Assembly (NCBI GenBank): GCA_018715645.1
Contig: DVLE01000052.1
Location: 1-57,009 of the forward strand
DNA length: 57,009 bases
Reading direction: 5' to 3'
Source: Candidatus Merdisoma merdipullorum
GTDB lineage: Bacteria; Bacillota; Clostridia; Lachnospirales; Lachnospiraceae
This document shows positions 5,237 through 17,708 of this stretch, piece after piece (the stretch's first letter is position 1; every line of letters begins with the position of its first letter). Position numbers and translations under genes: made by a program. Below the pieces are notes generated by a model. That model made no database searches. It was not told where the DNA came from and saw only the letters and a program-made list of their open reading frames with translations.

Positions 5237-6026
5237 ACCCTCGTCCGCCCAGCAGCGGTTTCTGAAAAAGCGGCAGCAAAAACTGCGGACCGTCACCCTG
5301 GTCCGCAGTCTGATTTTTCTGGCCTTTCTCGTTCTCTGGGAAGCCAGCACCAGGCTCCATCTCATTGATGCCTTTATCTTCAGCAGTCCTACGCGAGTAG
5401 TGACCACCTTTATGTCCATGGCCGCGGACGGCTCCATCTTCCGGCACATAGGAAGCACGCTCCTTGAAACGCTGGTAAGCTTTTTCCTGGTCTTTGCCGT
5501 GAGCCTTTTTTCCGCCATGCTGCTGTGGCTGAGCCGGTCCCTGAGCAGAATCCTGGAACCCTACCTGGTGGTCCTTAACAGCCTTCCGAAATCGGCTCTG
5601 GCCCCGCTTCTCATTGTCTGGCTAGGCGCCAATACGCGGACTATCATCGTAGCCGGCATGTCGGTAGCTGTATTCGGCAGTATTCTTACGATTTACACAG
5701 GATTTTCAGAAGTGGACCCCGACAAAATCAAGCTCATCTATACTCTGGGAGGGAAAAAAAGAGATGTTCTGCTGAAGGTAATTCTGCCAGGCTCCATCCC
5801 GATTTTTCTGAACACCATGAAAGTCAATATCGGTCTCTGTCTCGTGGGCGTCATCATCGGGGAATTTATCGGAAGCCGTCAGGGACTGGGCTATCTCATC
5901 ATCTACGGGAGCCAGGTCTTTCAGCTTGATATGGTGCTGATGTCCATTGTGATTCTCTGTATCGTGGCTATGTGTCTTTACCAGGCCATAAGCGCCGCGG
6001 AACGGATTTACCTGAAAAAGCTCTGA
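5229..6026 (+). CDS. NitT/TauT (SsuC-like) ABC transporter permease
   Basis: The protein of about 265 residues has six predicted membrane segments and a C-terminal BPD_transp_1 domain. The EAA-type loop is recognisable around TLGGKKRDVLLKVILPGSIP, and the family motif GEFIGSRQGLGYLI follows. A GTG immediately precedes the chosen ATG and could also be used; AAGGAG lies 7-10 bases upstream of the pair. The reading frame overlaps the ATPase gene by 8 bases. Together they form the membrane core of an importer. The binding protein must be encoded elsewhere, or the system uses a shared one. Confidence 0.9.
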   Translation: MAEPSSAQQRFLKKRQQKLRTVTLVRSLIFLAFLVLWEASTRLHLIDAFIFSSPTRVVTTFMSMAADGSIFRHIGSTLLETLVSFFLVFAVSLFSAMLLWLSRSLSRILEPYLVVLNSLPKSALAPLLIVWLGANTRTIIVAGMSVAVFGSILTIYTGFSEVDPDKIKLIYTLGGKKRDVLLKVILPGSIPIFLNTMKVNIGLCLVGVIIGEFIGSRQGLGYLIIYGSQVFQLDMVLMSIVILCIVAMCLYQAISAAERIYLKKL

Positions 6027-13116: not shown

Positions 13117-14640
13117 TCAGCCTGCCCCCATGCGAACTGCAAGAAACCAGGCGTCTTCCTTTTCACTGATACGCCATTCCCTTTCCAGCCTCAGATTCGC
13201 GCATTCCCGCAGCCGCTTCTTCGCAAATCCTCTGTCATGGGTATAGACAAAGAGCATAGCTCCCGGCTTTAAGAGTCCTTCCGCACGCTCAAAAAGATAC
13301 CTGTGCAGAAGATCCGTCTCATGAGATGTTCGTTTTCCGCCCGCGGAAGGCATATCGGTAAAAATCTCGTCAAAACGGTATTCATGCCGAAAATCCCGCA
13401 TATCCCGGTTGACAAAATGCACTGGCACTCCTGCGATCGCTGCGTTTTCTCTGGCTCCCGCTATGGCGGGCGCAAAGAGATCCACTCCGTAAAGCGTATC
13501 CGCGTGAACCAGATAGTTCCGCTCCAGCAGAAGCGTTCCCACTCCGCAGAAGGGATCGAGTACCCTTGCCTCCTCTTTCAGATAAGGTTCGGCAAGCTTT
13601 GCAAGAAGCGCGGCCAGAGAAGGCTGCATGGAAGCCGCCGTGCTGTTTTTCCGATAGGAGAAACGATGATCGGGAAGGGAGGGAAACTTTACAAGCGGAA
13701 GAAACGCTCCCGACTTTTTCTCAAGAAGACGTATCTCCACCTCATACGCCGACACATCGTTGATAAGGAGGCCCTTGGACCTTTGCATCAGTCCGTCTGC
13801 CAATCTCTTTGTAAACAGATTTTTCTGTTCCTGCATCATGCGGCTTCTACATTCAATCCGAAACCTCCAGGGAGTCTTTTTCTGCGTTCCTTCCGGAAGA
13901 TGACGTTCCAAAAGCTCCAAAAGGCCGGAAGAAAGCAGAGCCTCTGCCTGCTCCGCCGCAATCTTTTCCGGATTAAGCTCCTCTCCGTTCAGACAGAACA
14001 AAAGCTCGCGCCAGGTGCGAATCGTAAGCAGTTCACGCAGATCCGCTTCGCGCACGCGGATACCGGAACCCAGAAGGCTCACGCTTCCTTTGGCAATCTG
14101 CCTTGCCGTCACCTCCCTGTGTTCCTTCCAGGCTGTCAGGATCACATCCGACGGAACATCCAATCCGGCGAATCGTCTGTTCTCCCCCTGAGGCTGCAGG
14201 CGAGACAAAAGGACGTTCACAGCTTCCAGCTCCTCGCGGATGTGCTTTTCTGTCTCTGGTGTGCGTTCCGTCCGGATCAGCTCTGTTTGCCTCTCCCGGA
14301 AGAAATCGGCGCACTTCGCGCAGTCGCTGCCCTGCAAAGCGATCAGGTAGGAGCTTTTCACGAATCTCTGCGTCTCCGCCTGGTAGGCCAGAAGCAGAGC
14401 GTCCCGGCACACATCGCTCCCAATAGAGCCCAGAACCAGAGCCGCGTTCTTACGCGTCTTTGCATCCTCCGATTTCAGCAGAGGCAAAAGCGTCTCCGGC
14501 TCCTCCTGAAACCGGTCCCGCAGCCACTCCAGCTTTTCCCGTCCGCCTTCTTTTTCCTTCAGCGCGGCTCTTATGGCAGACAGATTCTGCCGCATATTTT
14601 TTCCAGCTTTTATCTCCTGATATAATTCCTGTAAATCCAA
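13117..14640 (-). CDS. HEAT-repeat + THUMP-like/UPF0020 SAM-dependent methyltransferase
   Basis: A TTG start at 14640 (MDLQELYQEIKAG) was chosen because AGGAAGAA precedes it; the first internal ATG at 14595 is poorly placed. The protein is about 507 residues. The N-terminal 130 residues contain helical HEAT-type repeats (KTRKNAALVLGSIGSDV). The middle is THUMP-like. The C-terminal Rossmann methyltransferase has motif I VLDPFCGVGTLLLE and an acidic loop YGVDLF. The substrate-base motif that is usually N/D-PPY appears as TDMPSAG. Relatives modify guanosine in tRNA or rRNA. The HEAT fusion and the altered motif IV leave the substrate open. Confidence 0.78.
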   Translation of the reverse strand: MDLQELYQEIKAGKNMRQNLSAIRAALKEKEGGREKLEWLRDRFQEEPETLLPLLKSEDAKTRKNAALVLGSIGSDVCRDALLLAYQAETQRFVKSSYLIALQGSDCAKCADFFRERQTELIRTERTPETEKHIREELEAVNVLLSRLQPQGENRRFAGLDVPSDVILTAWKEHREVTARQIAKGSVSLLGSGIRVREADLRELLTIRTWRELLFCLNGEELNPEKIAAEQAEALLSSGLLELLERHLPEGTQKKTPWRFRIECRSRMMQEQKNLFTKRLADGLMQRSKGLLINDVSAYEVEIRLLEKKSGAFLPLVKFPSLPDHRFSYRKNSTAASMQPSLAALLAKLAEPYLKEEARVLDPFCGVGTLLLERNYLVHADTLYGVDLFAPAIAGARENAAIAGVPVHFVNRDMRDFRHEYRFDEIFTDMPSAGGKRTSHETDLLHRYLFERAEGLLKPGAMLFVYTHDRGFAKKRLRECANLRLEREWRISEKEDAWFLAVRMGAG

Positions 14641-14703
14641 AATTCTTCTTCCTGTTCTTGTTTCATTTTTATAGCTGTCGCCATTATACCATGTCCTTCG
14701 GAC

Positions 14704-14733
14704 ATTATACCATAGCCCCGGTTTTGGCGGCAA
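14704..14733 (-). promoter_or_regulatory. Promoter of the methyltransferase gene, with its -35 inside direct repeat R1
   Basis: On the minus strand TTGCCG (14728-14733) and TATAAT (14704-14709) are 18 bases apart. The -35 lies inside the 42-bp repeat and the -10 starts at the base adjacent to it. A second GGTATAATG copy lies 21 bases downstream, separated by the palindrome ATGTCC-GAA-GGACAT. Confidence 0.55.
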
Positions 14734-14751
14734 GGGGGCTGTTTCTCTGCT
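14710..14751. repeat. 42-bp direct repeat, left copy (R1)
   Basis: Matches 16274-16315 at 41 of 42 positions (one G/A difference), with weaker similarity for about 8 more bases. The two copies bracket the AT-rich AlbA_2 gene. It begins CCATAGCCCC and ends TTTCTCTGCT. Confidence 0.9.
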
Positions 14752-14772
14752 GTTTTTGACTTTTTAAATAGC

Positions 14773-16155
14773 TTACTCAAGCACTTTCCAATAACCTGTC
14801 TTTTTAGAGCCAACTCTTTCTACATAGCCATTTTCTTTCAAGAACGCAAGATTATTCTCCACCGCTGTTTTACTAATTCCCAGTATCTGATGCAGTTCGC
14901 TTGTGGTAACATTCGGATTATCTCTCATTTCTGTTATGATTCTTTGTCTTCTTGAATTTAATCCTTTTTTATCCCCAACCTTATTCCCAACTTTTTTTCC
15001 AACCTTCTTTATTCGCTGAAGTGGGATTGTAACAACAATCGAATTTTCCCTAAAAGTAAATGCTTCCTTTCCATAAGTTTCAATGATCTTAGGCACTCCA
15101 CGACCAGATTTTTCACTGATATGCAGTTGTAAAAAGATTTCAGATAATTTTTCATTTACCGGAATTGATTCTCCCAAGAAAAATCCTTCCATAGTCTGTG
15201 CCGGTGCCAGTGTTCCTCTCGATAAAATTTCTATCCTATTCGAGAAGACTGAAATCATTGGTTCGTTTCCACTTATCCATAGATTATGCAGAACAGCATT
15301 TATAATTGCTTCTCTAAAGGCTTTGTTATCAAACAGCGGGGTTTCCGGACGCTCTACTACACGCTCGCTCTCATCCGTCTGAATTAGATTTAATACATCC
15401 GCATATCTTAAAACCTCATCCAAAGTATAGAGCAAACAATTATTCCCAAATTCTCTTACAGAAAATAAATTGGAACCTTTGGTTTCTCCTTCAAAAATTG
15501 ATACCCTCAATGGGAAATGCGAATTATCCGAAAGCAACTGTGCAAGCAGATTATATTCCCCATCTTTATTTCTTAACCCAAGATTTTTCTCAAAAGTCTT
15601 TTCATTTAATACGATTCCCTTTGAACCATAATAACCAAATAATTTAGAAAATGTCAGCTCCTGATATTTGGCCGGCAATGTCTCAATCGTCTCCATTCTA
15701 CCGTCCAAAATCTTAAATAACTGGATTTCCCTTCTCGGATAATCTTTCAAATTTGCTTTGGAAGAACCGATGCGAATATATCGCTTTTCTTTAAAAGCTG
15801 TCGGAATTTCTTCCGCAGCAGGAATCACCAGAACAACAACTCTCTTATTATTTATGGTTGTTTCCTCAAATGAAAAATTGATGCTCGGAGATAGATTTCT
15901 CGCCAAAAAATTTTGATACGGTTCTTTATTATAGTCGCAATACTGATTGAATGTTGTTCCTACGATTTCATGCATTTCATTATTCACGCCCCAGACAAAG
16001 TATGCTTGAGCCTTATAATGAAATGCCGCTGCATTTGACAAGGCTGATACGTATTCACCAAGGACTTCTGGCTGAAACCAATTTTCCTTAAATTCAAACC
16101 ACTCCTGCTCATCACCATATGCGCATAAGTCTAAAACTAATTTTTCAATATTCAT
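14773..16155 (-). CDS. AlbA_2 (Schlafen-like) / HATPase_c_4 / winged-helix protein, probable transcriptional regulator on an AT-rich insert
   Basis: The 460-residue protein has an N-terminal AlbA_2 domain (residues about 10-130: EWFEFKENWFQPE, SNAAAFHYKAQAYFVWGV). An ATPase-like middle follows, with FREAIINAVLHN, FSNRIEILSRG and SEKSGRGVPKIIETYG, as in PF13749. A low-complexity linker KKVGKKVGNKVGDKKG leads to a C-terminal winged helix (TTSELHQILGISKTAVENNLAFLKENGYV). Family members are DNA-binding regulators, often on mobile DNA, and some act in defence. The gene is visibly AT-rich against its neighbours. It is flanked by 42-bp direct repeats and has a 20-bp inverted repeat around its -10 box. 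Recent horizontal acquisition is likely. Confidence 0.85.
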   Translation of the reverse strand: MNIEKLVLDLCAYGDEQEWFEFKENWFQPEVLGEYVSALSNAAAFHYKAQAYFVWGVNNEMHEIVGTTFNQYCDYNKEPYQNFLARNLSPSINFSFEETTINNKRVVVLVIPAAEEIPTAFKEKRYIRIGSSKANLKDYPRREIQLFKILDGRMETIETLPAKYQELTFSKLFGYYGSKGIVLNEKTFEKNLGLRNKDGEYNLLAQLLSDNSHFPLRVSIFEGETKGSNLFSVREFGNNCLLYTLDEVLRYADVLNLIQTDESERVVERPETPLFDNKAFREAIINAVLHNLWISGNEPMISVFSNRIEILSRGTLAPAQTMEGFFLGESIPVNEKLSEIFLQLHISEKSGRGVPKIIETYGKEAFTFRENSIVVTIPLQRIKKVGKKVGNKVGDKKGLNSRRQRIITEMRDNPNVTTSELHQILGISKTAVENNLAFLKENGYVERVGSKKTGYWKVLE

Positions 16156-16169
16156 AGATCAGTATCCTT

Positions 16170-16226
16170 TTCCCAACTTTTATTCCCAATAAGGACATTA
16201 TAACGCATTGGGAATAAAGTTGGGAA
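16170..16226 (-). promoter_or_regulatory. Large operator-like inverted repeat flanking the -10 box of the AlbA_2 gene
   Basis: The arms 16170-16190 and 16207-16226 (TTCCCAACTTT(T)ATTCCCAAT and its complement) match over 20 bases, with a single extra T in the left arm. The 16-base spacer contains a perfect minus-strand TATAAT (16197-16202). A protein bound to both arms would occlude the promoter, so autoregulation by the winged-helix product is the simplest reading. Confidence 0.75.
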
Positions 16227-16273
16227 TATTTTATGCAATGATTAAAAAAATATTCTTAGAACTTATCGAAAGT

Positions 16274-16315
16274 CCATAGCCCCAGTTTTGGCGGCAAGGG
16301 GGCTGTTTCTCTGCT
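16274..16315. repeat. 42-bp direct repeat, right copy (R2)
   Basis: Copy of 14710-14751, offset by 1564 bp. Unlike R1 it has no TATAAT abutting it, so the -35-like TTGCCG it contains is orphaned here. Confidence 0.9.
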
Positions 16316-16501
16316 ACTTTTGCCGGACTTGCGTATTTTTTTCCGAATCGTTGCATTTGCAACAGATTATTCCTTTGTTTTTGCATATACTTAATGATAA
16401 TTAGCCTTGTTGGCTGAGGAACTGCTTGTTCTTCAGTCCAAGCTCATCTTACGCCGGGTACAGGCCGGCATCATTATCAGAACCTAAGGAGGAGCATTTT
16501 T

Positions 16502-16912
16502 ATGAGCGTAACATTTGATAAATCTCTGGAAACCGGAAATGAACTGATCGATCAGCAGCACAAGGAACTGATTGATCGTGTGAATAAGCTGCTGGAAAGC
16601 TGCTATATGGGAACAGAAAAGCGTGCCGCTATTCAGACTTTGAATTTCCTGCTGGATTACACCGTATTTCATTTTGAAGCTGAGGAGAAGCTTCAGCAGG
16701 AATCCGGCTATCCGGGCTTTGAGGCTCACAAGGAGCAGCATCAGACATTTGTAAAGGCTGTACATGAGCTTCTGGACATGCTGGAGGAGGAAGAAGGCCC
16801 CACAGACGCTTTTGTGGAAGCGGTAAATAAGAACATTACCGACTGGCTTCTGAATCATATCCAGGTACAGGACAAGGCTGTGGCCGCTTACGTGCAGAGC
16901 CATTCCAAATAA
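16502..16912 (+). CDS. Bacteriohemerythrin
   Basis: The 136-residue four-helix protein retains all seven di-iron ligands expected for hemerythrin: H20 (DQQHKEL), H57 and E61 (HFEAEE), H76 and H80 (HKEQH), H119 and D124 (HIQVQD). Single-domain bacterial hemerythrins bind oxygen reversibly and serve oxygen sensing, delivery or scavenging in anaerobes and microaerophiles. AAGGAGG lies just upstream of the ATG. It stands alone, next to the right direct repeat. With the rubrerythrin at 43 kb it points to an oxygen-sensitive lifestyle. Confidence 0.95.
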   Translation: MSVTFDKSLETGNELIDQQHKELIDRVNKLLESCYMGTEKRAAIQTLNFLLDYTVFHFEAEEKLQQESGYPGFEAHKEQHQTFVKAVHELLDMLEEEEGPTDAFVEAVNKNITDWLLNHIQVQDKAVAAYVQSHSK

Positions 16913-17126: not shown

Positions 17127-17708
17127 ATGAGCAATGAAAAAGTTTATGGTATGAGTTTCAGTAAAATCTATCCGCTTCTGGTCACTAAGGCAGAGAAAAA
17201 AGGGCGTACATTGGACGAAGTAACCCAGGTCATCACCTGGCTGACCGGGTACACCACAGAAGAAATCGAGAAGGCTGCGGCAAGTTCTCTGACATACGGT
17301 GACTTTTTCCGTAATGCCCCGCAGCTGAACCCGAACCGGAAGCAGATCACCGGCGTTGTATGCGGTGTGCGTGTGGAAACGATTGAGGAACCGCTCATGC
17401 AGGAAATCCGGTATCTGGATAAACTTATCGACGAGCTTGCCAAAGGAAAGGCCATGGAAAAAATATTGCGCGGCCAGGCGAAAATCTGTGAAGATAATAT
17501 CAAAAACAATGAAAAAACCTATCTGTTTGATGCGGTAATTGAAGCCGTCCCTGAAAAAGGCGGCGCTTATGTACGTTTTCCCCATGACATCCGCAAGGAA
17601 TTCGGAAAAGGCCGGGTGAAAGCAGAGATTACCTTTGACGACGAACCGTATTCCGGCAGCATTGTAAATATGGGCATAAAAAATGCGGACGAAAGTTCAA
17701 AAACGTAA
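17127..17708 (+). CDS. DUF2200-DUF1905 fusion protein, truncated at the C-terminus
   Basis: The start [18 protein letters not shown] has AGGAGGA just upstream. Residues 1-113 match a complete DUF2200 protein, ending at the usual [16 protein letters not shown]. Residues about 128-190 match DUF1905: [43 protein letters not shown]1905 normally continues some 25 residues further, but here TAA follows ADESSKT. The same frame resumes after the stop as IKVITAEQ, which looks like the missing final strand. This suggests a small deletion or nonsense change. The two domains usually occur as separate small proteins of unknown function. A DUF1801 remnant follows immediately. Confidence 0.8.

Follow-up and report, generated by a model that had tools for sequence, protein, structure and literature searches.

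The window analyzed here is a 57,009-nt stretch of contig DVLE01000052.1 of Candidatus Merdisoma merdipullorum (Lachnospiraceae), whose assembled genome comprises 2.87 Mb in 97 contigs and is 87% complete. Between the genes for a UPF0020-type methyltransferase and a hemerythrin, it carries a single gene for an AlbA_2-type protein, enclosed by two copies of a direct repeat. The features of the locus, observed and predicted, are as follows.

13117..14640, minus strand: UPF0020-type methyltransferase gene, left neighbor (start uncertain)
14672..14714, minus strand: dispersed host palindromic repeat, TATGGTATAATGTCC...
14710..14758, plus strand: direct repeat copy R1, 49 nt
14773..16155, minus strand: AlbA_2 / ATPase-C-like / winged-helix gene, 460 aa, intact
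14970..15010, minus strand: predicted internal operator, in-frame units in the linker K-V-G-K-K-V-G-N-K-V-G-D
16170..16228, minus strand: promoter of the AlbA_2 gene and predicted operator, TTGGGAATA-type units in inverted orientation flanking TATAAT
16197-16202, minus strand: TATAAT box, within the promoter
16256..16271, minus strand: TTTCGATAAGTTCTAA, F-D-K-F-stop, left over from the 3' end of a phage tail-assembly-chaperone gene
16274..16322, plus strand: direct repeat copy R2, 49 nt, 46 identical to R1
16502..16912, plus strand: hemerythrin gene, right outer neighbor

The two repeat copies are identical at 46 of 49 positions, with a start-to-start spacing of 1564 nt. The 42-bp direct repeats reported in a preliminary description of this DNA are real, and correspond to the best-conserved stretch of the longer repeat, 42 nt with one mismatch. 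A 38-bp core of the repeat matched twice in the window at up to three mismatches (0.00 matches expected, 100 shuffles). At the same tolerance, a 27-bp core had two matches in the entire own genome and, in a family sample of 397 genomes, was absent from the remaining 396. Dispersal of the sequence without linked cargo, which the preliminary description had named as refuting its reading, was not seen. An Rfam search of positions 14500-16520 returned five matches up to E = 1, and since all of them scored far below the gathering scores, no RNA element was assigned to this region.

The AlbA_2 gene is the sole gene between the repeats, and no transposase-like fold was present among the matches listed. 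Its GC content of 36.4% and GC3 of 32% compare with 46.5-56.4% and 53-68%, respectively, in 13 neighboring genes. These results agree with the earlier view of one AT-rich AlbA_2 gene bracketed by repeats with no transposase inside.

The window protein matches the SLFN_AlbA_2, HATPase_c_4, and winged-helix families, and its SLFN_AlbA_2 score (Pfam PF04326; 64.5 bits against a curated cut-off of 25.3) places it in this class. It shares domains, above the Pfam cut-offs, with the SLFN_AlbA_2/HATPase_c_4/wHTH proteins (PF04326, PF13749; DIP2311), which we take to be COG2865-type regulators. An AlphaFold model of the protein (pLDDT, 84.6; pTM, 0.53) was closest among solved folds to DIP2311 (PDB 3lmm, E = 1e-20), followed by Schlafen N-domains at E values of 2e-4 and weaker, and a sequence search for solved relatives returned none at E <= 0.2. 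In PHROGs, phrog_12156, labeled as a DNA helicase, matches the protein over its full length (E = 5e-57). The best PADLOC match, PDC-S50 (E = 3.9e-8), covers only residues 2-124 and 126 of 387 model positions; a role in defense is possible. Broken or partly deleted copies of AlbA_2 genes occur in both phage and chromosomal settings (L117, L170, L193/L341, L014).

Insertion site and origin of the repeat

Across positions 13117-16912, the genus is split. A gntR-abcA-abcP-lipoprotein block is followed by the methyltransferase gene in 8 and by the hemerythrin gene in 7 of the 15 other genus genomes (one genome per species), while the window genome carries both. The order lipoprotein-methyltransferase-AlbA_2-hemerythrin is unique to the window genome, and the methyltransferase gene adjoins the hemerythrin gene in none of the 15 relatives. 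Comparison of this junction in relatives had been proposed as a check on the insertion, with a single repeat and no gene as the proving arrangement. At the site, tblastn found the AlbA_2 gene in 0 of 15 genomes; a single-repeat site without the gene was not found among them. Together with its AT-rich composition and horizontal spread, the absence of the gene from the site in all 15 genomes supports the claim that the gene was inserted here. Another genome of the genus (G004) carries an AlbA_2 gene elsewhere, with 95% protein identity to the window copy. The DNA identity of the two copies is 87.1% across the entire gene, compared with 69-86% for the host genes examined in that genome, except for short pieces (43 nt or less) that reach up to 90.6%.

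The ends of the repeat bear on its origin. The outermost five bases of R1 (14710-14714; TATGG on the minus strand) are also the start of the dispersed host palindromic element, placing the insertion breakpoint 5 bp inside this element. TATGG begins 13 of 13 copies of the element found by its first 14 bases, with unrelated DNA before each. On the strand of the gene, TATGG forms the end of the repeat; R1 then continues into the palindromic element, while R2 retains TATGG without the remainder of the element and is followed by the phage remnant. Because TATGG is the start of a host element and R1 continues into that element, the repeat is duplicated chromosomal sequence. Judged by these junctions, it is chromosomal target DNA and not part of a travelling unit. 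The mobile unit of one repeat plus one gene envisaged earlier is therefore not supported: the repeat does not travel, its last bases are the first of a dispersed host palindrome, it is missing from the other close copies, and another chromosomal copy has a different repeat. The palindromic element, which begins TATGGTATAAT, is modular and at times clustered; it occurs on other contigs of the own genome (L337-L354) and also has BLAST matches in genus relatives.

That other chromosomal copy, L069, is flanked by two identical 24-bp repeats, the only copies in its genome. Its AlbA_2 gene adjoins htpG, with a transporter gene on the other side (by eye); in a search of its genus for the empty site, htpG and the right-hand gene matched on different contigs or far apart. 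A further chromosomal copy, L075, has no flanking repeat, and the copy at L193 is truncated. In 10 of 12 other testable close copies a flanking repeat above background was absent, the flank of L068 being too short. Across 72 loci, five had flanking repeats scoring at least 20, compared with 4 of 222 intervals drawn at random from those loci, only a mild enrichment (Fisher one-sided P = 0.042); among 150 mispaired flanks none reached this score, the highest being 13.

Long flanking repeats of 20, 36, and 73 nt also occur at the more distant AlbA_2 genes L098, L130, and L141; those of L141 (3468-3540 and 5442-5514) contain a terminator-like hairpin. They were excluded as instances of the same phenomenon because they are 250-340 bp away on at least one side. 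A common hairpin target for insertions was likewise dropped. Compared with shuffles, terminator-like folding was seen for the repeats of L069 (z = -3.29) and L141 (z = -5.16), those of L098 and L130 gave no significant result, and R1 and R2 fold no more stably than shuffled sequence (z, -0.03 to -0.33). The terminator-like palindrome at the L069 insertion (5740-5825) recurs in other gene settings in its relatives L162 and L163, and may itself be mobile.

Close copies and the phage tail hot spot

In a scan of public genomes for relatives, the closest among the best 80 of 211 loci had 92-96% protein identity and came from several Lachnospiraceae genera. By DNA search, 24 of 397 family genomes matched at E <= 1e-30, the own genome included. 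With duplicates removed, 15 distinct close copies besides the window copy were available for comparison. BLAST homology stopped at window position 16271 in 11 of these and at 16254-16269 in the other 4; the opposite end fell at 14762-14775 in 14 of the 15, the remaining copy being truncated. Directly upstream of AlbA_2, at least 11 of the 15 copies carry the end of a tail-assembly-chaperone gene, identified in 10 by the peptide QED(FD)RF/KF-stop and in L070 by tblastn. The peptide of L117 lacks FD, and L191 has a fragment of the chaperone end. Downstream of AlbA_2, a tape-measure gene follows in 5 and a Mom-like gene in 6 of the 11 chaperone-linked copies. This Mom-like second accessory gene is seen at 7422-8249 of L113, and also in L067, L068, L076, L117, and L170. 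By eye, most phage copies are followed by a terminator-like hairpin, which the window copy lacks; a TATAAT promoter-like site is present in the window copy and its homologues.

Two scans of viral contigs with the chaperone covered 80 of 425 and 80 of 232 loci, and 31 loci were examined. One carried AlbA_2, three passed from the chaperone straight to the tape measure, and most of the rest had other sequence at this place. This variable sequence behind the chaperone marks the place as a moron hot spot; among known morons, HK97 gp15 lies between chaperone and tape measure. In the same 31 loci, chaperone genes without AlbA_2 end in identical codons, and the F-D-K-F codons therefore belong to the phage. 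A scan of viral contigs for AlbA_2 itself found it in only one. An annotated phage collection gave no DNA match to the gene, and the 77 records from a plasmid search were all below 60% identity.

The insert in the window begins with the TTTCGATAAGTTCTAA remnant, 2 bp from the repeat. Since the window copy keeps the chaperone's last codons, F-D-K-F-stop, its AlbA_2 gene most likely came from the moron hot spot behind this gene. Presence and absence at one place in related phages, the mark of a moron, is a property of the AlbA_2 family and not of the chromosomal window copy. Like the morons of phage tail operons, the family occupies the late tail region as an accessory gene, here behind the chaperone in 11 of 15 copies, and the gene has its own promoter-like sequence; unlike them, the window copy lies outside any phage. 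Tab of Pseudomonas phage JBD26 is described as an 83-residue protein from the phage late operon (PMC10884400), against the 460-aa AlbA_2/wHTH protein of the window. A search of the open-access literature returned no description of AlbA_2 morons.

Units of the promoter and the linker

The 12-bp inverted units of the AlbA_2 promoter recur, in frame, in the linker codons preceding the winged helix. A unit pattern, written after inspection of the data, was scored in 72 intact homologues, with L112, L117, L119, and L134 excluded before the counts for internal stops; these four were likewise left out of the tree, the whole-coding-sequence scores, and the winged-helix comparison given below. Upstream of the genes it gave 80 sense and 83 antisense matches. 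Within the 36-codon linker region it gave 123 matches, all in frame 0, and elsewhere in the coding sequences only 8 sense and 7 antisense. Units were present in both promoter and linker at 52 of the 72 loci.

We then compared the units of each locus with one another. Among 19 representatives (<88% identity), an exact unit was common to the own promoter and own linker in 16, against 15% of crosses, and 0 of 20,000 permutations reached the observed value. The majority type at the three most variable letters agreed between promoter and linker in 48 of 52 loci. On a tree of the core domains, the first variable letter changes twice in the promoter and twice in the linker (agreement, 52/52), the next two do so 5 and 6 times (49/52), and the last three 5 and 14 times (36/52); independent changes are few. 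In a nearest-neighbor check both members were matched in 19 of 49 pairs, with 29 misses involving L077, whose promoter unit has drifted. When whole coding sequences were scored, 23 of 33 best matches fell at codons 375-402, and the own sum of 478 exceeded the permutation maximum of 458. The same control also speaks against covariation, however: the own coding sequence ranked first in only 3 of 33 representatives, a median of 15.6% of other coding sequences scored equal or better, and the best match lay outside the linker in 10 of 33. Promoter similarity tracked winged-helix identity given core identity (partial correlation, 0.38; 0 of 2000 permutations), while the reverse value was 0.04. The linker is predicted to be disordered (pLDDT < 50 at residues 382-397), which would leave its residues free to be set by the DNA.

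In the own genome, a 21-base operator at up to three mismatches matched only the AlbA_2 gene, in its promoter and at two overlapping places in its linker; in two phage loci, the operator likewise matched only the own promoter and linker. A strict-pattern search of seven other genomes matched one of them, inside an AlbA_2 gene, and is uninformative. The best reading of these sequence patterns is that the AlbA_2 protein represses its own gene and has a second, internal operator, the units being its predicted sites. The units may instead act at the RNA level, yet the inverted copies upstream of TATAAT would be untranscribed. We lean slightly toward the fuller proposal that the linker codons copy the promoter units, forming an operator in the regulator's own coding sequence that would be linked to, and change with, the DNA-binding domain and would let the regulator bridge some 1.2 kb between promoter and gene body. 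The AlbA_2 unit would then stay self-contained when jumping between phages and chromosomes.

Autorepressors with an operator inside a coding sequence are familiar from lac O2, the gal internal operator, and purR. AlbA_2 resembles these in having sites both in the promoter and within coding DNA. It differs from them in that an in-frame array of 12-bp units lies in the regulator's own linker and that, across the family, these internal units vary together with those of the promoter and with the DNA-binding domain. For SLFN_AlbA_2-type proteins, no description of operator units in linker codons was found in the open-access literature searched. If the protein does bind the units in the coding sequence, a DNA-binding motif shapes the linker throughout an entire protein family. 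Regulatory and coding information would then overlap in an unusual way, and the family would supply natural operator-repressor pairs for the study of winged-helix recognition.

A probable passage to the chromosome and its alternatives

The history that we regard as quite probable is that a phage moron gene moved to the chromosome by non-homologous joining, with duplication of target DNA, and that its product is autorepressing. It draws on features established at the level of sequence, namely, the insertion, its foreign composition, the shared ends, the phage remnant, the host origin of the repeat, and the covarying units. We infer the direction from phage to chromosome and, likewise, binding of the units by the AlbA_2 protein and what this protein senses or acts on. 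A single moron gene with its own promoter would have left the hot spot behind a prophage tail-assembly-chaperone gene and entered the chromosome between the methyltransferase and hemerythrin genes. The phage DNA would have been cut in the chaperone's last codons and just past the AlbA_2 stop codon, and the non-homologous joining would have left 49 bp of chromosomal target DNA on each side, most plausibly through staggered-break fill-in or template switching. The insert would have persisted as a solitary intact gene, with the repeats as a scar rather than as recombination sites of a cassette, and the AlbA_2 product would repress its own promoter via the winged helix, acting on the units around TATAAT and on the second set in the coding sequence. 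Against this history speak the lack of a flanking repeat at L075, the truncation of L193, the imperfect match of R1 and R2 (46 of 49), the only mild enrichment of long flanking repeats at AlbA_2 genes, and the rarity of AlbA_2 in the viral scan and its absence by DNA from the annotated phage collection. RecA-independent joining with template switching, as in work on RpnA (PMC5350276), is one way for unrelated DNA to enter a chromosome. RpnA serves here as an example of such joining, and the enzyme itself is not implicated by the window data. A solitary phage accessory gene caught after such a move, its cut in the phage DNA placed to the base and its landing site duplicated, makes the often assumed phage-to-chromosome traffic of single genes open to study at base level.

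A decayed prophage, in which the 49-bp repeats are attL and attR and all but the accessory gene has been deleted, would also account for a phage-borne gene with a phage remnant kept beside it, and attachment sites commonly form repeats of 15-50 bp that differ at few positions. We nevertheless consider it unlikely. The cuts fall at the natural ends of the moron unit, leaving 2 bp between insert and repeat on one side and about 3-14 bp on the other; loss of the remaining prophage would take two independent deletions with precisely these end points. No other phage gene lies inside the insert, and the L069 insert is short as well, with a different repeat.

The arrangement of one gene and two direct repeats, with no recombinase inside, could also point to a cassette mobilized through site-specific recombination at the repeat (integron-like or Xer/pdif-like). 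Both pdif modules and integron cassettes are single-gene modules bracketed by recombination sites, and the window resembles them in its one gene between short direct repeats. Its repeat is unlike their sites in being unique, host-derived, and different at each insertion, and no recombination site common to the insertions and travelling with the gene was seen. With two core copies in the genome there is no array, the repeat end is part of a host palindrome, the L069 sequence differs, and 10 of the 12 testable close copies noted above have no flanking repeat above background, making a cassette very improbable.

That the AlbA_2 protein moves its own gene, binding the unit arrays near both gene ends and joining them as a transposase would, we rate as less probable still. 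The gene does have operator units close to each of its ends, the ends of the inserted unit are constant amid very varied neighbors, and two chromosomal copies have target-type duplications. However, the insert extends about 43 bp beyond one array and about 200 bp beyond the other, the duplication is absent in most copies, and no transposase fold was found, the nearest solved structures being DIP2311 and Schlafen domains. The locus does not resemble an insertion sequence or transposon either, as AlbA_2 is the only gene inside and the target duplication has no fixed short length: it measures 49 nt in one abutting case and 24 nt in the other, and L075 has none. An assembly artifact of the metagenome bin, which the fragmented and incomplete assembly might suggest, is scarcely credible, as the repeat copies differ at three positions and thus are not one collapsed sequence, and the same arrangement occurs independently in L069.

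Beside the locus, between the hemerythrin gene and a GNAT gene, the window contains a small gene (17128-17708) that is not at that place in the 15 genus relatives; it represents a second lineage-specific insertion or loss.
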